Shown in pieces: positions 36,407-52,106 of a stretch of DNA of 54,777 nt. The position numbers were made by a program, and so were the translations under genes. The stretch's first letter is position 1; the number at the start of each line of letters is the position of its first letter. The notes beneath the pieces were generated by a model. It worked only from the letters and a program-made list of their open reading frames with translations, was not told where the DNA came from and did not search any database. The stretch comes from Sulfobacillus benefaciens (lineage in GTDB: Bacteria; Bacillota; Sulfobacillia; Sulfobacillales; Sulfobacillaceae), in NCBI GenBank assembly GCA_003023725.1, contig PXYT01000021.1:1-54777 (forward strand), written 5' to 3'.

Positions 36407-36522
36407 CTACACAGCTAACGCAATGGGATTTTGGCCCCCATGTGGCCATGCAAAAATTATTGCTGGACAAATTGCCGGTTTGTGCGAGATGATGCTGGTA
36501 TGATTGCGAGGAGTCGATGCGT

Positions 36523-37452
36523 ATGAACCCGTCACGCTGGAATCCGCCTTTTTGGGTGGGGGACCGGGAATTTTCCGCAGAGGATCTCGGCACCATCCGG
36601 AACATCGTCTATCGGTGCCGGCGTTTGAGCCGGGAAGAGATTGCGGCAACGATCTGCGAAAATCTGTCGTGGAAAGCTCCCAACGGCCACCTAAAAGTCA
36701 TGGCTTGCCGCGAAATGCTGAAAGGGATGGAGTCAGCCGGCCTGATTGAACTGCCGCCTGCAAAAGGCTCACGGCGTCATGTTATCCGTGATACCGAGGC
36801 ACGCCCCGTGTCCGTTGTTTCTGTTAGCGGGAGTTTGGCGGCTCTGCGTCCCGTTACCCTCGATCCGGTTACGGATCAGGAGCGCCGGATGTGGAATGCG
36901 ACCATGGCCGCCTATCATCCCCTAGGCTACCGAAGGCCCATTGGCGCGCATCAGCGATATTGGATTCGCGGTCGCCAGGAGGACGACCGGGTAATTTTGG
37001 GATGTCTCTTATTCGGCGCTGCGGCCAAGGCGGTGGCCGATCGTGACAGCTGGATTGGCTGGAGCGCGGCCGAACGCTCCCGTTTCAGGTGGCGGATTGT
37101 GAATAATAACCGGTTTTTGATCCTCCCCGGGGTTCGTATTCCTCATCTAGCCAGTCATGTGTTGGGACTCGCAGCCAGGCAAGTCCCTAAAGACTGGGAA
37201 AGACGCTATGGCTATAGGCCAGTGTTGATGGAAACGTTTGTGGAAGAGCCCTGGGAGGGGACTTGCTATTTAGCCGCCAATTGGCTGCGCCTCGGAGAAA
37301 CCGCCGGGCGCGGCCGTCAGGACCGCTACCGTGAAGCAGCACTGCCGGTTAAAAGCATCTGGGCCTATCCTCTGGATAAGCGGTGGAAAAAACGGTTGGT
37401 GGAGCCAGCTCCCCAGGCGGCAAATGAGGATGGGGCTGAAGACGATTTTTGA
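36523..37452 (+). CDS. solo DruA-like protein (DUF4338)
   Basis: 309 residues; ATG 36523 suits GAGGAG about ten bases upstream better than the ATG two codons earlier. The C-terminal two-thirds show the DUF4338 core: YHPLGYRRPIGAHQRYWI, ILGCLLFGAAAKAVADRD, IGWSAAERSRFRWRIVNNNRFL, RIPHLASHVLGLAAR, YRPVLMETFVEEPWEGTCYLAANW and TAGRGRQDR. DUF4338 is the DruA component of the Druantia anti-phage systems, but solo copies are common, often near mobile elements. No druB-E-like or large helicase gene is nearby. The N-terminal 90 residues look like a winged-helix-like module. It could be a defence remnant, a mobile gene or an independent enzyme; the biochemical activity is not settled. Confidence 0.75.
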   Translation: MNPSRWNPPFWVGDREFSAEDLGTIRNIVYRCRRLSREEIAATICENLSWKAPNGHLKVMACREMLKGMESAGLIELPPAKGSRRHVIRDTEARPVSVVSVSGSLAALRPVTLDPVTDQERRMWNATMAAYHPLGYRRPIGAHQRYWIRGRQEDDRVILGCLLFGAAAKAVADRDSWIGWSAAERSRFRWRIVNNNRFLILPGVRIPHLASHVLGLAARQVPKDWERRYGYRPVLMETFVEEPWEGTCYLAANWLRLGETAGRGRQDRYREAALPVKSIWAYPLDKRWKKRLVEPAPQAANEDGAEDDF

Positions 37453-37584: not shown

Positions 37585-38211
37585 TCAAATTAATCCATAG
37601 CGATATAAAATCACCGCCGCTTCCACCCTGTTTTTGGCTCCCAACTGTTCGATCACGGCGTTGACATGGGCTTTGACCGTGTTTTCCGAGATATTGAGGT
37701 TTTGTCCGATTTCTTTGTTGGTGAACCCTTGAGCCACCAGAGCCAATATTTTGATGTCAAGAGGTTTCAACGCGGCGGGAAATTCAAGCTGATTGTCCTC
37801 AAACCATTTCATGACATGAAGGGCCAGGCGGGGATCCAAAACGGCGCCTCGGCTTAGAACTTGGCGTATGCTGTCGACGAGTTCATCACCGCTGACGTCT
37901 TTAACGATATATCCCCGTGCGCCGTTGGCCATGGCGGCCCGAAGCAAGGCGTCGTCGGTATAGCCAGTCAGAATGATGCATGCGGTGGCGAGACCGGCAT
38001 TTTTGACTAAGCGGCACACAGCCGGCCCCTGAAGCCCCGGCATGCGAATGTCAAGCAAGGCAATCTCGGGTTTGAGACGGAATATGAGGTCCCACGCGCC
38101 GTTACCGTCCTCGGCTTCTCCCGCCACTTCGAAATCGGAGGTTTGAACCAAAACCTGGCGAATTCCCCGCCGTGTCAGTTCATGATCGTCACAGATCACC
38201 ACGCGATTCAT
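37585..38211 (-). CDS. NarL-type response regulator beside the cox locus
   Basis: 208 residues from ATG 38211, with AGGAGGG seven bases upstream. The receiver has CDDHE, Asp54 (ALLDIRMPG), Thr in ILTGYT and Lys in YIVKD. The output domain is a LuxR helix-turn-helix (LKPLDIKILALVAQGFTN, then ISENTVKAHVNAVIEQL). It overlaps the kinase gene by 23 bases and forms a unit divergent from the CO dehydrogenase operon, so it is the prime candidate for controlling it. Confidence 0.92.
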   Translation of the reverse strand: MNRVVICDDHELTRRGIRQVLVQTSDFEVAGEAEDGNGAWDLIFRLKPEIALLDIRMPGLQGPAVCRLVKNAGLATACIILTGYTDDALLRAAMANGARGYIVKDVSGDELVDSIRQVLSRGAVLDPRLALHVMKWFEDNQLEFPAALKPLDIKILALVAQGFTNKEIGQNLNISENTVKAHVNAVIEQLGAKNRVEAAVILYRYGLI

Positions 38212-39373
38212 TGTTTTCCCTCCTGTTGGGCCAGATGGCGCGAACTGTCGTGCCCCCGTCATCATTGGTAAAAAGAGTTAAATGACCACCGCTTTTCTGC
38301 GCCACAGCCTGCATGGACCTTATGCCGAAGGTTGGGGACGAATTTGGTTCCGGGGGCAATCCTTGGCCGGTGTCTTGCACCGCCAGCACGATTTCATCGG
38401 GAGTCACGCTCAAGGTCACGACAGCCACGGAACTTGCACTATGCTTGCGGATGTTGGTCAATGCTTCCTCAACAATATTGCGGACCGGCAACGCCACATC
38501 CTGCCTTATCGGAATATTCCGGCCGCTTAAAAGGAATTTCGTACGGATGCCGGTATTTTGCTGAAATTTGTGGAGTCTTAGGTCTATGGCTGCCGGCAAA
38601 TCGGGTTGCTCCTGGCTGTCGCTGAGGGAGAAAATGGCATCCCGAATGGATTTTAATCCGCTGTCAGCCAATTCCTGCATGGCTTCGAGCCGTTCTGGCC
38701 ATTCGGTTCCAGCCCCAAGTTCTTGCGCCTGTTTGAGACAGCGGCTGATTTCCATTTTAAGCAGGAATAGTGTCTGCGCAACCGACGAGTGAAGACTTAG
38801 ACTGATACGGTGCCGTTCTTCCACAATCAAGAGCCGTGCCATCTGGTCCCGGATGCGGACCCCCTCCAGCGCAATTCCTGCCTGCGTGGCGAACGCCTCA
38901 AGCAATTCTTCGTCGCGTCGGGTAAATTGACGTCCGCCAGGAGTTTCAGCCAGGAATAAACTGCCCACCGGGGCTCTCGACGATCGGAGCGGTACGCCCA
39001 GAAACGGGCCCATTGCCGGGTGATTGCGGGGTTTGTGAATGTCATGGGACACAGGGACGCGATCAACCCGGATGGTCTTCGCGCTCCGGTATGGAGCCAT
39101 AAAAAAGCCGTGACCGGTCGGGAGCTCGGGGGATGCGGGGACTCCGGACACTTTGAAGTGGCGGAGCTGTTCAGGGCGATCTTCATCGACAACCACCAGT
39201 CCGCCCATTGCGGCACCAATCAGATCCCTGGCGCAATCCACAATGGTCTGTAAAAGACTGTTCAGATCAGCCTGCATGGCAATTTTTCTGTTAAGCATGA
39301 TCAAGGTTTCGAGTTCACGAATCTGCCGGGTCAGTTCCTTGGGTTTGTGCGATGTCCCTGGTTCGAGATTCAT
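38189..39373 (-). CDS. soluble GAF-domain sensor histidine kinase
   Basis: 394 residues; ATG 39373 has GAGAGG eight bases upstream, while the GTG two codons earlier is too close. There are no membrane helices. A GAF domain covers about 30-175 and the H-box is VEERHRISLSLHSSVAQ, with His195. The residue after His is Ser rather than the usual Asp/Glu of HisKA_3 kinases. The catalytic domain has EEALTNIRKHS, DTGQGLP and FGIRSMQAVAQ. There is no Cys cluster as in NreB. A small cytoplasmic ligand or redox state may be sensed by the GAF domain. Confidence 0.9.
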   Translation of the reverse strand: MNLEPGTSHKPKELTRQIRELETLIMLNRKIAMQADLNSLLQTIVDCARDLIGAAMGGLVVVDEDRPEQLRHFKVSGVPASPELPTGHGFFMAPYRSAKTIRVDRVPVSHDIHKPRNHPAMGPFLGVPLRSSRAPVGSLFLAETPGGRQFTRRDEELLEAFATQAGIALEGVRIRDQMARLLIVEERHRISLSLHSSVAQTLFLLKMEISRCLKQAQELGAGTEWPERLEAMQELADSGLKSIRDAIFSLSDSQEQPDLPAAIDLRLHKFQQNTGIRTKFLLSGRNIPIRQDVALPVRNIVEEALTNIRKHSASSVAVVTLSVTPDEIVLAVQDTGQGLPPEPNSSPTFGIRSMQAVAQKSGGHLTLFTNDDGGTTVRAIWPNRRENNESRGDL

Positions 39374-39423
39374 ATGCACGACCTCTCTGCAAAAGAAAGC
39401 CCTGTCCCACAGTATAGTTCTAT

Positions 39424-39597: not shown

Positions 39598-40485
39598 ATG
39601 TTTCCTTATCCTTTTCGTTATTTCGCTCCGACTACTCCGGAAGAGGCGTTCGGAGTGCTGGAGCAGTACGGGGATGAAGCCAAAATTTTGGCTGGGGGGC
39701 AAAGTTTGTTGCCGATGATGAAACTCCGTTTAGCCGCTCCGGGTGTTCTCATCGACATTAACGGCATATCCGAATGGAATCGGATTACGGAAGATGCTCA
39801 TGCCCTGACGCAAGGATCGTTGATTCGCCACAGCCATTGGGAGCACACCCATCACATCCGCATTCCCCTGCTCTATGAAACAGCGGGGCATATTGCCGAT
39901 CCGCTGGTGCGGAACCGGGGAACCGTGGGAGGTTCCCTGGCCCACGCGGATCCCGCGGCCGACTGGGGTGCCAGTCTGTTGGCGCTTAAGGCCCAGGTGC
40001 ATGTGCAAAGCCGGGTGCGGGAGCGCTGGATAGCCTTAAGGGACTTTTTTATTGATACGTTTGTGACCGTTTTGGAACCGCAGGAGATAGTGACAGCCAT
40101 TCAAATCCCGCTTGCTTCCGAAACCGATTTCACCGGAGCCCGTTATCTGAAACTGGAACGTAAGGTAGGGGATTTCGCCGTTGTTGGCGTCGCCGTCACC
40201 TGCTCTTTCAATGACCAGGGCATAGTCACCGAGGCAGGCATCGGTCTGGCGGCGGTGGGAGCGTCGCCTCTGTCCGCCAGTGGGGCTGAGAGCCTGTTGA
40301 TTAATCATCCTCTCACCTCCGAAGTAATTCAGGAGGCGGCCGAACGCGCTGCCGAGGAGTGTGATCCCCAAAGTGATCGCCGGGGCAGTGAGGAATATAA
40401 AAGGGCGATGGTGCGGGTGTTTGTGAAACGGGGACTTCGCGCCATCCAGGCGGACTGGGAAAACCGGCTGAAAAAGCCGGCATAA
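39598..40485 (+). CDS. coxM: CO dehydrogenase medium (FAD-binding) subunit
   Basis: 295 residues, ATG with AAGGAGG seven bases upstream. [16 protein letters not shown] near residue 30 and [18 protein letters not shown] near residue 107 are the FAD-binding motifs of CoxM. It passes electrons from the CoxS clusters to the acceptor. First gene of coxMSL, in the order typical of form I CO dehydrogenase. Confidence 0.93.
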
Positions 40486-40513
40486 ACTTGATCGGGAAAG
40501 GATGAGAGAGCAG

Positions 40514-41032
40514 ATGGAAAATGCGACCATCCCGGAGAAGGTTATGGTCCGGGTTACGATCAACAAAGAGCCGCGTGAAGCCCTGGTGGAACCGCGTACC
40601 CTGCTGGCCTATTTTATCCGCGATGCCTTGGGGCTCACTGGCACCCATGTGGGATGCGATACCACCAGTTGCGGAGCCTGCACTGTCCTGTTGGATGGGG
40701 TTCCCGTCAAGTCCTGTACCATTTTGGCCATCGCCGTTCAGGGCCATGAGATCGAGACTGTGGAGGGGCTCGAGCAAGAAGGGGTGCTTCATCCCCTGCA
40801 GCAGGCATTTTGGGATAATCACGGCCTTCAGTGCGGATTTTGCACGCCAGGAATGCTGATGACTTCAAAGGCTTTGTTGCAGTCTTCGCCGGGAGAATTG
40901 AACGAAGCCGATGTCCGGCGGGCCATTTCCGGCAATTTGTGCCGGTGCACCGGTTACGTCAATATCGTCAAAGCCGTGCTCGCTGCCAGGGAAAGATTGA
41001 GGGAAGCTCAAGAGGAGGTGCGGACGTCATGA
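40514..41032 (+). CDS. coxS: CO dehydrogenase small (2x[2Fe-2S]) subunit
   Basis: 172 residues from ATG 40514 (AAAGGA 11 bases upstream); ATG 40502 is an alternative. The plant-type cluster is bound by [15 protein letters not shown] plus a later Cys (VKSC), and the second by QCGFCTPGM and GNLCRCTGY. It relays electrons from the molybdenum centre to FAD. Confidence 0.94.
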
Positions 41033-43380
41033 GTATTGATATTACCGAAAGCCGGCCTTTGGGCAAAGCGGTCAAACGCAAGGAGGATCCGCGTTTCATC
41101 CGTGGTCAGGGTCGCTATCTTGACGACATTGTTTTGCCCGGGATGCTGTACATGGCGCTTTTACGCAGTCCTTACGCTCATGCCCGCATTAAACAGATTC
41201 GCACGCAGGGGGCACTCCAGGTGCCGGGAGTTAAGGCGGTGATTACCGGAGAAGATTTGGCGGCTATGAATCTGGCATGGATGCCAACCATGGCCGGGGA
41301 CCGACAGATGGTTCTGGCTACAGGCAAAGTGCTCTTTCAATACCAGGAGGTGGCGGCAGTCGTGGCTGAGAGCCGGGAGGCCGCTGAGGACGGGGCTGCC
41401 GCCATAGAGGTGGATTATGAACCGTTGCCAGTGGTCGTCGGTCCCTTTTTCGCCCTCACCGATAAGGCTCCGGTATTGCGGGAAGACCGCGAATCGAAAA
41501 ACAATCACATTTTTCATTGGGAAGTCGGGGACAAAGAGGCGACTCAAGCTCAGCTCAACACATCACCCGTGCGAGTGACGGAACACATCCGTATGCCGCG
41601 TGTGCATCCTGCTCCTATTGAACCGTGCGGATGTATCGCCGATTTTCAGAGATCTACGGGCAAATTGACCTGGTATGTCACCTCTCAGGCTCCTCACGCC
41701 CACCGTACCGTGCTGTCCATGGTGTCGGGACTGCCCGAACACATGATTCACGTGATTTCCCCGGACGTCGGCGGTGGGTTCGGCAATAAGGTTCCCGTTT
41801 ATCCAGGGTACGTGTGTGCCGTCGTGATGTCCCTCAAATTGGGAAAACCCATCAAGTGGATCGAAACCCGCACAGAAAACATTACCACCACCAACTTTGC
41901 CCGGGATTATCACATGAGCGCTGAAATCGGCGCGACAGAGGACGGCCGGGTGATGGCCCTAAAAGTGACGACGATTGCCGATCACGGGGCCTTTGACGCC
42001 GCCGCCGATCCCTCCAAGTTTCCAGCCGGTTTGTTTTCCATCGTAACCGGATCCTATCAGTTTCCGGTGGCGTTCGCGGAAGTGGACGGCGTGTACACGA
42101 ACAAGGCTCCGGGAGGTATAGCCTATCGCTGTTCTTTCCGTGTGACCGAGGCCTCATTTCTGATCGAGCGGGTCATGAATACCTTGGCTCTCAAACTTAA
42201 TATGGATCCGGCTGAACTCAGACGGCGCAACTTCGTTCCTCCTGAGGCTTTTCCCTACCTGTCTCCTTTGGGTTGGACCTATGACAGCGGCAATTACGAC
42301 AAAACGCTGACCCGGGCTCTGGAGATGATTGACTACCAGGGACTCAGGGAGTCTCAGCGAAAAAGGCGGGACAGGGGAGAGTTGGTGGGAATCGGTATAT
42401 CAACCTTTACGGAAATTGTCGGGGCGGGGCCGAGTCATACTTTTGATATTATGGGCATTAAAATGTTTGACAGCTGTGAAATCCGGGTGCACCCCACCGG
42501 AAAGGTCATAGCCCGTCTGGGAACGCGTCATCAGGGCCAGGGACATGAGACCACGTTTGCCCAACTGATTGCCGAGGAATTGGGCCTGTCCGCGGCCGAT
42601 GTTCTCATTGAGGAAGGAGACACCGATACCGCACCTTACGGTCTTGGAACTTATGCCAGCCGCAGTACGCCCACTGCGGGAGGTGCCGCAGCCCTGGCGG
42701 CCCGGCGGATCCGCAGCAAGGCCCGTCAAATTGCGGCGCATTTATTGGAGGTGTCGCCGGATGATGTGGAGTGGGACGGCACCGGGTTTGTGGCCGCCGG
42801 AGCATCTTCCCGGCGGGTGAATATGAGTGATGTGGCGCTGGCGGCTTACACCAATTTGCCGCAAGGAATGGAGCCGGGACTGGAGGCCACGTACTATTAT
42901 GACCCGCCCAACTTGACCTTTCCCAACGGAGCTTATATTGCGGTGGTTTCCATCGACAGGGGAACGGGACAGGTTCGGGTGGAACGATTTGTGGCGGTGG
43001 ATGACTGCGGAACCGTGATCAATCCCATGGTGGTCGAAGGCCAGGTGCATGGAGGACTGACCGAAGGATTCGGCATTGCGTTTATGCAGGAAATCGCCTT
43101 TGATGAGGAAGGCAATAATCTGTCGCCCAATTTCATGGAGTATTTGGTCCCGACGGCCGTGGAAACCCCGAAGTGGGAAACCGACCGGACCGTTACTCCG
43201 TCTCCTCACCATCCTATTGGTGCCAAAGGTGTGGGTGAATCGCCCAACGTGGGTTCCCCTGCGGCTTTTGTCAATGCGGTGGTGGATGCCTTATCGCCCT
43301 ATGGCATTACCAATGTGGAAATTCCTTTGTTTCCGTGGAAAATTTGGGAGATTCTCAAAGAGAAAGGGCTGGCTATGTGA
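41029..43380 (+). CDS. coxL: form I aerobic CO dehydrogenase large subunit
   Basis: 783 residues; ATG 41029 overlaps the coxS stop (ATGA), with GGAGGTG upstream. The active-site loop is AYRCSFR (Cys368 the copper-ligand cysteine), the signature of genuine form I Mo-Cu CO dehydrogenases; form II enzymes have [21 protein letters not shown] (pyranopterin region), [11 protein letters not shown] and GAKGVGESP with catalytic Glu737 are intact. The enzyme oxidises CO to CO2 at a [CuSMoO2] centre on molybdopterin cytosine dinucleotide. Length and motifs fit an active enzyme. The frame is open upstream of 41029 but that part overlaps coxS. Confidence 0.96.
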
Positions 43381-43404: not shown

Positions 43405-44391
43405 ATGGATACAGTACTGGAAGAAGCAGTGCGCCGGGACGCCGCAGGAGAATCCTATGTCATGGTCACAGTGTTACGAACCAGGGCCCCGACTTCCGCC
43501 ATTGCGGGAGCTCGGGCGCTGATTGGACCCAATAACGAGGTGAGGGGTTATATCGGTGGGGAATGTACCCGCAGAACAGTTCTGGAAGTGGCCGCCGAGG
43601 CTCTGGCGGACGGGCGTCCTCGTCTGGTTTTGCTCTCTTCCGGTCCGGAGCGTGAAGTGTCACGGGATGCAGACGGACTCGTTGTCCGGCCCATGACCTG
43701 TGATTCCGGCGGTACAGTCGAATTGTTTGTGGAGCCGCGGCTGGCCAATCCCTTGCTTCTGGTCATCGGACACTCACCGGTGTCAGTTTATCTGGCGGAT
43801 ATGGCGCGGCACCTTCCCTTCCGGCTTAAATGTCTGGACATTAACCAGGAAGGAGACTGGGAAGCCTTCGGGCAGAACCTTCGCGCTGTGGCTGCCCAGG
43901 GAGGATTCGTCGTGTCCTGTACCATGGGCCAGTACGACGAGTGGGTGGTGGAACAAATCGGGGAGGCCCCCATTTGCTACCTCGGTGTGGTATCCAGCCC
44001 CCGCCGGGGTGAAGTGCTGCGGGCACGGCTCAAAGAAATCAGAGGATCTTCGGACGTCCTGACTGTGTCTATTCCGGCAGGCTGGGATTTGCATACTCGC
44101 GACCCTGGGGAAATTGCCGTGAGTATTTTGGCCGAAATCATTGCCATAAGGCGGGAAATGAGTTCGTCCGCTCTGGCAGAGTCCCGAACGGGAGCCGAGA
44201 AGGATGCAGCCGAGCCGATTTGGGTCATTGACCCGGTCTGCCGGATGCAGGTGAACTGGTCCGAAACACCTTATCGAACAGTGTACGGCGGCGAGAGGAT
44301 CGGATTTTGCCAGGGTTCCTGCCGGGATGCTTTTCTCAAGGAACCGGAAAAATACGTGTCTTCGGTGCCCGGAGGACAAGAATCTGGTTAG
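43405..44391 (+). CDS. coxF: XdhC/CoxF-type maturation factor fused to a YHS domain
   Basis: 328 residues, ATG with AAGGAGG upstream. Residues about 1-80 form the XdhC_CoxI domain (RTRAPTSAIAGARALIGP, GYIGGECTRRTVLEVA), and 110-255 the Rossmann-like XdhC_C domain (LLLVIGHSPVSVYLADMA, then CYLGVVSSPRRGEVLRARL). XdhC proteins bind and sulfurate the molybdenum cofactor before insertion. The remaining 55 residues are a YHS domain: DPVCRMQV with Cys279, then FCQGSC with Cys302 and Cys306, and FLKEPEKY. YHS/TRASH domains bind metals such as copper. The fusion suggests that molybdenum-cofactor maturation and copper or other metal handling are linked, which is an inference. Confidence 0.88.
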   Translation: MDTVLEEAVRRDAAGESYVMVTVLRTRAPTSAIAGARALIGPNNEVRGYIGGECTRRTVLEVAAEALADGRPRLVLLSSGPEREVSRDADGLVVRPMTCDSGGTVELFVEPRLANPLLLVIGHSPVSVYLADMARHLPFRLKCLDINQEGDWEAFGQNLRAVAAQGGFVVSCTMGQYDEWVVEQIGEAPICYLGVVSSPRRGEVLRARLKEIRGSSDVLTVSIPAGWDLHTRDPGEIAVSILAEIIAIRREMSSSALAESRTGAEKDAAEPIWVIDPVCRMQVNWSETPYRTVYGGERIGFCQGSCRDAFLKEPEKYVSSVPGGQESG

Positions 44392-44420: not shown

Positions 44421-44873
44421 GTGAAAAGCTACCAAGGGATTGTTAATATCGAGGCTCCGCTAGAAGCAGTCTGGGATTTCATCCGAGATCCAGATGCCAT
44501 TGGCCGCTCAATGCCGGATATGGTGGAGTACCAAGTGGAAGATGCCAACCACCTGCGTGCCAAAGTACGGGTGGGAGTGGGACCCGTTCGGGCCGTTTTT
44601 GACGTAGCGGCGGAATTGACGGTTTTGCCCGAGCCTTATCAGGTGCGGTTGCAGATGCAAGGCGGAGGCGTGGGCAGCGGGTTTCAGATGGTGAGCACCA
44701 TGCGGATTTCCGAGTCGGAGGAACAGCTTTCTCTGAACTGGACGGCCGAGGTGCAGGTAAGCGGTCCCTTGGCTACTTTGGGCGGAAGAGTTTTGGACAA
44801 TCAGGTGAAAAAAATTACGCAGCAAGTGTTTGAAAACATTCGCCAAGGACTCCTTCCCCGCCTCAGTGGATGA
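44421..44873 (+). CDS. coxG: CoxG family SRPBCC protein
   Basis: 150 residues; the GTG start has GGGGAGGAG seven bases upstream. The START/SRPBCC fold is visible: GIVNIEAPLEAVWDFIRDPDAIGRSMPD at the N-terminus and QVKKITQQVFENIRQ in the last helix. CoxG proteins are reported to attach CO dehydrogenase to the membrane and handle its quinone acceptor. Here there is only the SRPBCC domain, with no C-terminal membrane tail. It lies 30 bases after coxF. Confidence 0.88.
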   Translation: MKSYQGIVNIEAPLEAVWDFIRDPDAIGRSMPDMVEYQVEDANHLRAKVRVGVGPVRAVFDVAAELTVLPEPYQVRLQMQGGGVGSGFQMVSTMRISESEEQLSLNWTAEVQVSGPLATLGGRVLDNQVKKITQQVFENIRQGLLPRLSG

Positions 44874-45044
44874 CTACTTGGGGAACGGTCTTGAGAGACC
44901 ACGGCTCCTGGCAGAACGCGCATTTACTTCACAAAGAGGCGGGGTGCCTTTTCTTGTCCGAATAGCAGTCGCACGAATCCGCGGGCAAGCCTTTGGAAAC
45001 ACGAAGAGGCGCCCTTCGCCCGGGCAACCAAAAGGAGAATGGCA

Positions 45045-45896
45045 GTGGATTCCCTGACGACATGGAGGCAGCGGCTCGAAGATGCCGGATATGTGGCAGA
45101 TGAAACGGTGGCGGCGGTTTGTCATGCGGTAGAGCGTTTAAACCGTCCTCTGCTGGTGGAAGGGCCGGCTGGCGTGGGAAAAACATTTCTGGCGAAAGCA
45201 CTGGCCCAGTGCCTCAACAAACCTTTAGTGCGCCTGCAATGCTATGAGGGACTGGACCAGGCGCATGCGCTGTATGACTGGAATTACCCCAAGCAGCTCT
45301 TGGCGGCTCGCAATCAGGAGCCGGGGCAAGCTATCCAAAGTCTGTACGATTGGGAATTCTTGCTGGAGCGGCCACTCGTTAAGGCGATCCGGCTCAGACC
45401 CTCCCCGGTCCTTCTCATCGATGAGGTCGAGCGTGCCGGCGAAGAGTTTGAAGCGATGCTGCTGGAAGTCCTGGGCGAATATCAGATCACTATTCCCGAA
45501 ATCGGAACGGTGGCGGCGCGCGAACCTCCCTGGGTTGTGTTGACGTCCAACCGCAGCCGGGATTTGTCGGATGCGTTGCGGCGCCGTTGTCTTTATCTCT
45601 GGATGGATTACCCTATTGTGGAACGGGAGCTGGCGATTATCCAGCGTCATGTGCCTTCCTTGTCCTGGGATCTGGCCGCGAAGGTGGTGAGTGCCGTGGG
45701 CAAACTTCGGACATGGAATTTGATGAAACCGCCGGGACTGGCCGAGGCCGTGGACTGGGCGCGACTGTTGTCGGATTATAGGGCCGAGGACATATCGGAC
45801 ACTTTTTTGCGTTCGACCCTGAGTTGCGTGCTCAAAACGCGCGATGACTGGATAGTGGTGGAAAAGCAGGGGATTCGTGCACTATGGGAGAATTAA
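45045..45896 (+). CDS. coxD: CoxD-like MoxR AAA+ ATPase
   Basis: 283 residues from GTG 45045, seven bases after AAGGAG; the ATG at 45039 is too close to that site. Walker A is EGPAGVGKT, Walker B LLIDEVER, sensor 1 VVLTSNRSRDL and the Arg finger region ALRRRCLYLW. In carboxidotrophs CoxD is required to sulfurate the molybdenum centre and insert copper, working with the VWA protein CoxE. A 170-base spacer without a gene separates it from coxG. Confidence 0.92.
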   Translation: MDSLTTWRQRLEDAGYVADETVAAVCHAVERLNRPLLVEGPAGVGKTFLAKALAQCLNKPLVRLQCYEGLDQAHALYDWNYPKQLLAARNQEPGQAIQSLYDWEFLLERPLVKAIRLRPSPVLLIDEVERAGEEFEAMLLEVLGEYQITIPEIGTVAAREPPWVVLTSNRSRDLSDALRRRCLYLWMDYPIVERELAIIQRHVPSLSWDLAAKVVSAVGKLRTWNLMKPPGLAEAVDWARLLSDYRAEDISDTFLRSTLSCVLKTRDDWIVVEKQGIRALWEN

Positions 45897-46987
45897 CTCT
45901 GGCACGGTATACCGGGGTCATGGCCGACCAGGTCAGCCGTTTCACCCGCTTTCTCAGAGGGCATGGCTATTGTGTGACGGCAGGGGAAACCGAGGCGGCC
46001 TTGGTGCTCATGCAAGCCGTTGACTTAACGAACCCCCGGCACCTTATGATGTATTGGCGGTCTGTCTATTCAAAAACGGAGGAACAATGGATTCGGTTCC
46101 CCGACATGTTTACCCGTTTCTTCTATCCCGAGGGTCCGCGGCTGATTCAAAGGGAAAGACTGGAAGACGACGAGTCGCCGGCGACAGGAGGGGATCCGGC
46201 GAATGTGGGCCGGACCCGGTACGAAAGCCGTGAACATGCATTATTTGCTTACAGTCCAAGAGCGGGTTCGGAAGTCTCTTTGTCGCCGGACTCGGATCTG
46301 GACTATGCTGCGATGAAGTGGTGGACAAGGCGGATTTTGCGTCAGTGGGCCCAGGGTGGGGCGGACAAGCGGCCTGCCGGCAGCGGAAAAACGGTTCACT
46401 GGCGCAAAACCATCGAACAAGCATTGCGTTACGGTGGAGAGCCGGGGATATGGATTCGCAGACAACGGGATCCGGATCCGGCCAGGCTGGCGGTTCTGGT
46501 TGACGTCTCCGGGTCGATGCGGGCCTATGCGCCTTTTTATCTGGGTTTAGTCTGGCAGTTTCTGCGTGAAGGAGTTCGCCTGGAGTGTTTTCTCTCCAGC
46601 AACCGTTTGTTGCGGGTGACGCCCTTTTTGCGCCAGACTCATCCAGGCGGCCGCCCCGTCGCGGACCCTGCCGTTTTAGGCGGAGGAACCCGGCTGGGCT
46701 GGGCCTTTTCGCTGTTGCGACAGCAGTACCCGGCGTTTTTTACCAGCCGGACCACCTTTGTCGTTGCCTCAGACGGATATGATACCGGAGAGCTTGGATT
46801 GCTTGCCGAGTCTTTCCCTGATCTCGCATCCAGAGTGCGGCAAGTTATCTGGTTGAACCCGCTCATGCTGAATCCAGGCTACGAGCCCCGGTCGCAGGCG
46901 ATGAAAGTCGTGTTGCCGTACTGCTCCGCTCATGTGGGCGTCTATGATCCGTGGTCGTGGATAGATTACGGGAAGTCGTTGATCTAG
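45884..46987 (+). CDS. coxE: CoxE-like VWA domain protein
   Basis: 367 residues, ATG overlapping coxD by 13 bases. The von Willebrand A domain begins near residue 195, with the MIDAS motif DVSGSM at about 206-211 and a further metal-site Thr/Ser in GGGTRLG. The N-terminal half is helical. The product is the partner of the CoxD ATPase in active-site assembly. It ends the recognisable cox operon; no clear terminator follows. Confidence 0.9.
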   Translation: MGELTLARYTGVMADQVSRFTRFLRGHGYCVTAGETEAALVLMQAVDLTNPRHLMMYWRSVYSKTEEQWIRFPDMFTRFFYPEGPRLIQRERLEDDESPATGGDPANVGRTRYESREHALFAYSPRAGSEVSLSPDSDLDYAAMKWWTRRILRQWAQGGADKRPAGSGKTVHWRKTIEQALRYGGEPGIWIRRQRDPDPARLAVLVDVSGSMRAYAPFYLGLVWQFLREGVRLECFLSSNRLLRVTPFLRQTHPGGRPVADPAVLGGGTRLGWAFSLLRQQYPAFFTSRTTFVVASDGYDTGELGLLAESFPDLASRVRQVIWLNPLMLNPGYEPRSQAMKVVLPYCSAHVGVYDPWSWIDYGKSLI

Positions 46988-50256: not shown

Positions 50257-50593
50257 ACGTGTCAAACAAGAACCTATCCGGTTGTTGAAGATGTGATCGA
50301 AAAAGCCAACTTCGTCAAAACTTCCGAATTTGTGAATGCCTGGGAATAAGGCCGGGTCTTGAGGGCGTCTATTTCACGAAAGTGCCGGGTAATAAAAATG
50401 GCGTGAGGACCGTGTGATCCTCGTGACCTATACGGGACAAGGCCAGCGCAACAAATTGCTCGTTGCGGCTGACCTTGTGGTGAGCGTGGAACAAACGCTT
50501 TTTGAGTCATTTTTTGCACGGCGTTCTTTTACGGAGTTCTTTGGAAGACACACCGGCAGGCGGCGGAGGCACAGGCATGCCGCCTGCCCTTAG
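50257..50593 (+). pseudogene. frameshifted coding fragments, unknown family
   Basis: One frame reads TYPVVEDVIEKANFVKTSEF up to a stop at 50349; another opens at GTG 50414 and reads VILVTYTGQGQRNKLLVAAD, then LVVSVEQTLFESFFARRSF, to a stop at 50593. The pieces look like exploded parts of one protein, perhaps the same gene that starts at 49928. No family assigned. The last 39 bases overlap the terminator of the ect operon on the other strand. Confidence 0.3.
50555..50588 (-). terminator. hairpin at the end of the ectABCD operon
   Basis: GGCAGGCGG and CCGCCTGCC pair (9 bp) around a 16-base loop directly beyond the ectD stop. The following minus-strand sequence is GGTGTGTCTT, so the T-tract is weak. 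Confidence 0.5.
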
Positions 50594-51462
50594 TCACGGG
50601 TTGCAATGTATTCAGGGCGGGGCTCGGTTCCCGCGAATGGTGCTTCCACCCGATTCTCCACGCTGTTATAGACCACGAAGACGTTACTCCGGGGATAAGG
50701 GGAAATATTGCTGCTTGACCCGTGCATGATGTTGCAATCGAACAGCAACAGCGAGCCTGGGGAGCCGGTAGGCATTTCTATCCCGCATTGCCGCGCCAAA
50801 AATGTCAAACTGTCATCATCCGGAATACCATATTGCTGCTTGCGCAATGATTCCTGGTAATGATTTTTGGGAGTGGCTCCGACGCAGGAAATGAAATAAC
50901 GGTGGGAACCGGGCATGACCATCAGAGGCCCATTGAAGAGGTTGTTTTCGGTTAACGCGATCGAGATGCTGAGTGCGCGCATACGCGGCATACCGTCCTC
51001 CGCGTGCCAGGTTTCGAAATCGGAATGCCAGTAGAATTCTTTGCCCCGAAACCCCGATTTAAAGTTAATCCGGGACTGATGTATATAGACGTCGCTTCCG
51101 AGGATTTCTTGTGCCATGGATACGAGCCGGGAATCCTGGCACAGCGTGCTAAAAAAGGGGTCATTGCGATGCACCGCGAAAATGGAGCGGATCAAATCGC
51201 TTTGGGATTCGCGGATAATTTCCGGGTCGTTGTGGTGTTGATTGTCCATCCACAAACGGTCCTGTTCCTGTTGCAATTTCTGAATCTCGTTGGGAGAAAA
51301 GAAATCAGGCAGGAAGAGGAATCCATTCTCATCATAGAATCGGATCTGTTCCCGCGTAAGAAATCCGTTGTCGCGGGAATTGCCGTAAACGACCGGATCC
51401 TGTCTCTCGATGATTTGGGATCGACTGCCCCGGGAAACATAGGGATCAGTTTGAATGGACAT
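50590..51462 (-). CDS. ectD: ectoine 5-hydroxylase
   Basis: 290 residues, ATG with AGGAGG eight bases upstream. The facial triad for Fe(II) is His146 and Asp148 (FYWHSDFETWH) and His247 (CNIMHGSSSN); the stretch through AEDGMPRMRALS is the EctD signature. It uses O2 and 2-oxoglutarate to convert ectoine into 5-hydroxyectoine, a protectant against heat and desiccation. Last gene of ectABCD, 121 bases after ectC. Confidence 0.95.
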   Translation of the reverse strand: MSIQTDPYVSRGSRSQIIERQDPVVYGNSRDNGFLTREQIRFYDENGFLFLPDFFSPNEIQKLQQEQDRLWMDNQHHNDPEIIRESQSDLIRSIFAVHRNDPFFSTLCQDSRLVSMAQEILGSDVYIHQSRINFKSGFRGKEFYWHSDFETWHAEDGMPRMRALSISIALTENNLFNGPLMVMPGSHRYFISCVGATPKNHYQESLRKQQYGIPDDDSLTFLARQCGIEMPTGSPGSLLLFDCNIMHGSSSNISPYPRSNVFVVYNSVENRVEAPFAGTEPRPEYIATRD

Positions 51463-51583
51463 GGTGCAAACCTCCTACCTTATAATTTTGATATGAGTCA
51501 TGGTGCGTTTGCTGCCGTCTATCAAAATTTGACGCACCTGTCGATTTTTTTGCGACAACCAAGCGCCCGTGTTGTCGCGTCTG

Positions 51584-51982
51584 TCATGGGCTGTCGGGTT
51601 CGGTAAGAAGGGGATACACCCCGTTTTCGTCATGCGTCTCTCTTCCGGTAACCGGGGGATTGAAGACGCAAATCATACGCATATCCTCTTTAGGACGCAT
51701 GATGTGTTTTTCGTGGCCGTTTAGGGTGTAGAGAGTCCCGGGTGAGATAGTGTAGCGTTTCCCGTTTTCCACATCCTCCAGCTCGCCCTCTCCTTCGATA
51801 CAGTACACGGCCTCGATATGGTTTTTATACCACATGAAAGTTTCCGTCCCTTTATACATCATGGTGTCATGAAGAGAAAATCCGACCCGGTCTTTGGCCA
51901 ACAAGAGACGTCGGCTCGTCCAGGTATCGGTTTTTACATCGTTTGCGGTACCCATAATCGACTTTAAGGATTTTACAATCAT
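51584..51982 (-). CDS. ectC: L-ectoine synthase
   Basis: 132 residues, ATG 51982 with GGAGGCG upstream. A cupin fold; the iron ligands known for EctC are found as Glu57 ([16 protein letters not shown]), Tyr85 and His93 ([14 protein letters not shown]). It cyclises N-gamma-acetyl-diaminobutyrate to ectoine. Length is normal for the family (128-137). Confidence 0.96.
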
Positions 51983-52106
51983 GCAAAATCGCCTCCAAGA
52001 TAGATTCAGCACCGGGTATAAAGTGGGGAGGGAATGGAATCCTTCCCGCCGGGGCCCGGAGCCCCGCCGGAGTACAGCGATGCGCACCAAAAATGGCTGG
52101 GTAGGA

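Follow-up and report, generated by a model that had tools for sequence, protein, structure and literature searches.

The CoxF protein encoded in a form I CO dehydrogenase operon of Sulfobacillus benefaciens is an XdhC-type protein that carries a C-terminal YHS domain. The YHS domain on CoxF is specific to form I operons, yet dispensable in them. In the reading that we favour, and that we consider moderately probable, the YHS domain of CoxF is a tethered copper-binding domain that serves the copper step of Mo-Cu site assembly. Form I CO dehydrogenase removes CO from soil and air, and holds an unusual Mo-S-Cu cluster in which the sulfurated molybdenum is buried. In bacteria and archaea that oxidize CO with this enzyme, the CoxF encoded next to it often bears the small cysteine-rich YHS domain, of a type associated with copper, and CoxF-YHS is a testable candidate for the copper donor of the enzyme.

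Organization of the cox locus

In the window, the whole stretch of 54,777 nucleotides that was analysed, coxF is an unbroken ORF from ATG to stop on the plus strand (43405-44391), with a product of 328 aa. The operon runs in the order coxM, coxS, coxL, coxF-YHS, coxG, coxD, coxE, and its features are as follows.

39598..40485, + strand: coxM, FAD subunit of CO dehydrogenase (Pfam FAD_binding_5 and CO_deh_flav_C)
40502..41032, + strand: coxS, [2Fe-2S] subunit (Pfam Fer2_2 and Fer2)
41026..43380, + strand: coxL, form I CO dehydrogenase large subunit (TIGR02416, 1210 bits, cut-off 991)
42121..42141, + strand: AYRCSFR active-site loop of form I coxL, with the Cu-ligand Cys (translation, alignment to known sequences of both forms)
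43405..44391, + strand: coxF, XdhC-YHS fusion protein, 328 aa (ORF and Pfam; conserved in 25 of the 154 class genomes)
43441..43629, + strand: XdhC_CoxI domain, residues 13-75 (Pfam 6e-15)
43699..43701, + strand: Cys99 of the CoxF-type CxSxG element (CxSxG present in all CoxF examined)
43756..44139, + strand: XdhC_C Rossmann domain, residues 118-245 (Pfam 4e-18; Foldseek to 2we7/2we8 and 3on5)
44155..44220, + strand: flexible linker, residues about 251-272 (pLDDT <50 at 257-269)
44224..44361, + strand: YHS domain, residues 274-319 (Pfam 1.4e-11; AlphaFold2 model pLDDT 87)
44230..44241, + strand: D276-P-V-C279, part of the predicted metal site (spacing as D178/C181 of the M. phlei YHS)
44308..44322, + strand: C302-x3-C306, part of the predicted metal site (spacing as C204/C208 of the M. 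phlei YHS)
44421..44873, + strand: coxG (Pfam COXG)
45039..45896, + strand: coxD, AAA+ ATPase (Pfam AAA_5; NCBIfam MadB-type AAA below cut-off)
45884..46987, + strand: coxE, VWA protein (Pfam VWA_CoxE)

The initial annotation had described an XdhC-type protein ending in a YHS domain with Cys279, Cys302 and Cys306, placed directly after a coxL with the AYRCSFR loop. Pfam and the translation bear out the first point, and the gap of 24 bp that separates the end of coxL (43380) from coxF, together with the TIGR02416 score, bears out the second. The protein scores well above the Pfam cut-offs of the XdhC/CoxI family (XdhC_CoxI, 55.3 bits, cut-off 24.3; XdhC_C, 66.5 bits, cut-off 29.7) and of the YHS domain (PF04945, 44.7 bits versus 30.3), with an Asp and three Cys at canonical spacing. 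It is encoded together with a CSF-motif coxL, as is CoxF of form I, and reaches only 20.6 bits, against a cut-off of 161.6, with the equivalog model for XdhC of xanthine dehydrogenase (TIGR02964).

Immediately upstream of coxM lies a divergent two-component pair, a GAF histidine kinase and a LuxR-type response regulator (37585-39379, minus strand), which may regulate the cox operon. The window also holds a gene for a DruA-like (Druantia) protein just beyond the cox operon (36517-37452), and, on the minus strand at 50590-52090, an ectoine synthase gene adjoined by a PhyH-family gene that is probably an ectoine hydroxylase.

Association of the fusion with form I CO dehydrogenase

Among 60 relatives and the window genome, every one of the 19 full-length homologues is a fusion and adjoins an AYRCSFR coxL. 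In the 154 genomes of the window's class, a profile of the fusion found 25 full-length copies; of the 26 further XdhC matches, none covered the YHS part, and no YHS was seen in frame in the 20 of them that were checked by translation. The form I coxL model scored above its cut-off in 25 of the 154 genomes, and of the 26 genomes with a fusion or a form I coxL, 24 have both. One of the two mismatches (G526) has its coxL on a 3,123-base contig with just 759 bases downstream of coxL, and in the other (G002) coxL is split over frames, yet the AYRCSFR loop is present adjoining the fusion. All 25 fusions of the class have form I coxL sequence beside them. A Fisher test (25/0 versus 0/26) gives 4e-15, a value that is overstated since the genomes are kin; the association data come largely from one bacterial class and are phylogenetically non-independent. 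In a phylum sample of 398 genomes, fusion and form I coxL were present in the same five genomes, and within Bacillota the fusion is also carried by Alicyclobacillus and G412.

The initial annotation had proposed to test whether the fusion tracks only with AYRCSFR-type coxL. The tie to form I held, with fusions found beside CSF-type coxL only; the loop variants AHRCSFR and AYRCSFM also occur. The former (Tyr to His) is found in coxL of one genus of the class (G523 and G524; loci L156 and L157), where CoxF is still fused. Five genomes (G023, G041, G115, G522 and G478) have a CoxE-type gene elsewhere in the genome and no coxD or coxE found beside coxMSL; coxF-YHS remains in their coxMSL cluster.

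Form II operons provide a control within the same genomes and class. The window genome also encodes a form II cox-type operon (contig C71:24000-40000, locus L167) with an AYRGAGR loop and the order coxS-L-M-D-E-G-XdhC, and its XdhC has no YHS domain; nor do the XdhC proteins of the AYRGAGR form II operons of G509 and G510, of the same class. Across all loci surveyed, the fusion was found solely beside CSF-type coxL, with none next to genes of form II enzymes or other Mo-hydroxylases, so that the pattern named beforehand as counter-evidence, fusions mainly next to genes for form II enzymes or xanthine dehydrogenase, did not appear. As the form II operon of the window genome has coxD, coxE and coxG homologues and a YHS-free XdhC, CoxF-YHS alone is tied to the copper-motif form of the enzyme. 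Because homologues of coxD and coxE also go with form II operons, the gene content suggests that these two are not copper-specific factors and that coxF is the copper-specific one.

Form II enzymes are not known to require an additional sulfur carrier. This bears on an alternative in which the YHS cysteines, with no metal, act as persulfide carriers for Mo sulfuration. XdhC proteins are indeed linked to Mo sulfuration and interact with cysteine desulfurase (PMC4240915, introduction), but form II operons of the same class manage with YHS-free XdhC and the enzyme of a coxF mutant retains sulfane sulfur (PMC4240915), and we regard such a carrier as very improbable.

Conservation and predicted structure of the YHS domain

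The site residues of the window YHS domain are D276, C279, M281, C302 and C306, with a D/C/C/C spacing of 3/23/4. In an alignment of 33 complete non-redundant fusions, C279, M281, C302 and C306 are kept in 32, the exception being Deinococcus, and a Pro-Val pair and the Phe preceding C302 are invariant. Because the site residues are kept in all but one of the 33, the XdhC-YHS fusion is no chance event. The metal-site residues are near-invariant across several phyla, though identity to the window CoxF is only about 30-55%; between core and YHS, the homologues have linkers of 12 to 82 aa.

In an AlphaFold2 model of the full window CoxF, core and YHS domain are confident and the linker is unstructured at residues 257-269 (pLDDT <50); modelled by itself, the YHS domain has a pLDDT of 87. 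The YHS domain is thereby predicted to fold separately from the XdhC core. The model has an XdhC fold, matching 2we8 with a Foldseek E of 1e-13, at a TM of only ~0.5 and with uncertain domain orientation. The isolated YHS model best matches the YHS-like regions of diiron monooxygenases in structure; weaker matches are L24e-type ribosomal proteins and YacG. Both L24e-type ribosomal proteins and YacG are zinc-binding.

Such matches speak for the main rival of copper delivery, namely that the YHS domain carries no copper and acts as a structural (Zn-binding) or protein-docking module, seating CoxF on CO dehydrogenase or CoxE. The persistence of form I operons in which the domain is lost or its site degraded, described below, points the same way. 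However, a structural or docking module leaves unexplained both the restriction to Cu-enzyme loci and the near-invariant Asp, three Cys and Met, and we judge it unlikely.

Secondary matches of the window CoxF include YHS stretches of heavy-metal P-type ATPases. The second YHS domain of the window genome, the sole other one found, is encoded beside a heavy-metal P-type-ATPase-like gene, in a small ORF:

G000:C115:18289-18438 (locus L002): gene for a small YHS protein, in a frame of 68 codons

The XdhC core has a signature of its own. All CoxF proteins examined, fused or unfused, share a CxSxG element, whereas the other XdhC/CoxI proteins examined are of C(x)GG type or unaligned at this position. 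Cys99 of the window protein aligns with Cys108 of MCPSHGTM, the putative Cu motif of O. carboxidovorans CoxF; the flanking Met residues of that motif are not conserved across the CoxF alignment. A two-cysteine copper site made of Cys54 and Cys99 was considered as a CoxF hallmark but abandoned, as many other XdhC/CoxI proteins also have a Cys (GGGCxE) at the position of Cys54; only CxSxG is CoxF-type.

Distribution outside Bacillota and evolution of the fusion

Outside Bacillota, where the distribution was taken from plasmid records, the fusion occurs in Thermomicrobium roseum, the haloarchaeon Natronorubrum bangense, Caballeronia and Paraburkholderia (Burkholderiaceae) and Deinococcus sp. AJ005. 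All of these fusions lie inside operons with CSF-type coxL; the loop of Caballeronia is AYRCSFM, and at the T. roseum locus only coxMSL-F was found. In Deinococcus sp. AJ005 CoxF (L063 6941-8059) the YHS region falls just under the Pfam cut-off and the site is degenerate, with the Asp and two Cys gone (SPVDGE...FTCANC), while coxL is still AYRCSFR. In the same operon, coxG and coxF are separated by a gene of the TIGR02466 family (L063 6306-6977).

Eight alphaproteobacterial form I loci, including that of O. carboxidovorans, and the locus of the actinobacterium Nonomuraea have a CSF-type coxL and a CoxF without YHS, and no YHS was found nearby. Given these loci and the degenerate site in Deinococcus, the YHS domain is dispensable for the Mo-Cu site. 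The coxL loop of Nonomuraea gerenzanensis reads AYACSFR, with Arg replaced by Ala next to the Cu-ligand Cys (L072 5681). A split version, with a stand-alone YHS gene beside an unfused alphaproteobacterial coxF, was sought and none was found. MHYT proteins are annotated only at unfused loci, but those loci are all alphaproteobacterial, and we do not take them as evidence.

The same absences, in alphaproteobacteria and one actinobacterium, and the degeneration in Deinococcus would suit a domain that was fused once and passively inherited, with no present role. A remnant of this kind should hardly keep near-invariant metal-site residues at about 30-55% identity over several phyla, and we find it the least credible of the alternatives.

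In a tree of the core, the YHS label changes three times, and one gain with two losses would fit; the deep forks are weak. It is possible from these sequences that the YHS domain was ancestrally present in CoxF. A wider proposal, which we put forward tentatively and with some doubt, is that CoxF was ancestrally an XdhC-YHS protein whose YHS domain carried Cu(I) for the Mo-Cu site, and that the domain was lost in the alphaproteobacterial lineage. If true, the copper site of the pathway was sought in alphaproteobacteria, the group in which maturation was worked out and one without the YHS domain.

Proposed role in copper delivery

Copper binding and transfer by the window YHS domain, and the order of events, are proposed from sequence. 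The XdhC core would dock on apo-CO dehydrogenase and handle or protect the sulfurated Mo site, as the family and the mutants suggest. Tethered by the flexible linker, the YHS domain would bind copper through Asp276, Cys279, Cys302 and Cys306, with Met281 nearby, and pass the captured copper to the Mo-SH site of CoxL, perhaps via the CoxF-type Cys99. The Cys of AYRCSFR would then complete the Mo-S-Cu-S-Cys cluster. Homologues of CoxD and CoxE are present with form II operons lacking the copper motif as well, and these two proteins would serve steps that both forms share.

A different use of copper is conceivable, in which the YHS domain is not a donor but a sensor that gates CoxF, allowing release or activation only when copper is available. 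An adenylyl cyclase of M. phlei is switched on by Cu2+ through a YHS domain of equal Asp/Cys spacing, and organisms without the domain could simply be missing the gate. The window CoxF has no signalling output domain, however, and a linker of 12 to 82 aa suits loose tethering more than tight allosteric switching; gating appears to us less likely even than a structural or docking module, though more likely than a persulfide carrier.

Tethered delivery, our preferred reading, has difficulties of its own. The M. phlei data were obtained with Cu2+ and the Mo-Cu cluster needs Cu1+, which weighs against a Cu(I) reading. The dispensability of the domain, and the binding of other metals or none by related TRASH/YHS-like folds, also weigh against a Cu donor.

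Comparison with known systems

The enzyme of the O. carboxidovorans coxF::km mutant contains 0.04 Cu, full Mo and 1.4 sulfane S per enzyme, and that of the coxE::km mutant 0.00 Cu, full Mo and near-full sulfane sulfur (PMC4240915). The CoxF protein is missing in the coxE mutant (PMC4240915), and both phenotypes may therefore reflect loss of CoxF. From these mutants CoxF was proposed as copper supplier, with no mention of YHS (Pelzmann 2014; PMC4240915); a need for CoxF in copper insertion is known for O. carboxidovorans only. The initial annotation had suggested that the fusion could bring copper to the cofactor: the coxF::km mutant upholds a copper role for CoxF (PMC4240915), but the YHS domain is not essential to it. 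Nor is the joining of two steps usually thought separate new, copper delivery by CoxF having been published (PMC4240915). A literature search, with subscription papers outside its scope, found no paper that combines XdhC or CO dehydrogenase with YHS; the copper-delivery role of CoxF is already known, and the YHS domain as a possible copper site is new within the searched literature.

The CoxF protein of O. carboxidovorans (Afipia; pHCG3) shares with the window CoxF the XdhC_CoxI and XdhC_C domains, CxSxG and a form I operon, but has 280 aa without YHS and is encoded after coxE, whereas the window protein has 328 aa with YHS and is encoded after coxL. The XdhC structures 2we7/2we8 (M. smegmatis homologue of Rv0376c) and 3on5 (BH1974) have the same XdhC fold and, unlike the window CoxF, no YHS domain.

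The adenylyl cyclase of M. phlei is activated by 1-10 uM Cu2+ via its C-terminal YHS domain, for which a sensing role was proposed; related TRASH/YHS-like folds hold Cd in L24e and no metal in toluene-4-hydroxylase (PMC4626032). Cyclase and window CoxF both carry a C-terminal YHS domain on an enzyme core, with the same Asp/Cys spacing, but the one core is a cyclase with a proposed role in sensing and the other an XdhC protein for which delivery is considered. Heavy-metal P-type ATPases have a DPVCxM...FCxxxC-type motif in common with the window YHS, although theirs is tied to export pumps and that of CoxF to a Mo-enzyme maturase. The published donor, O. carboxidovorans CoxF, offers just a putative copper motif; the three-cysteine YHS domain of the window CoxF, predicted to fold separately, offers a small protein suited to direct measurement of copper binding and transfer.
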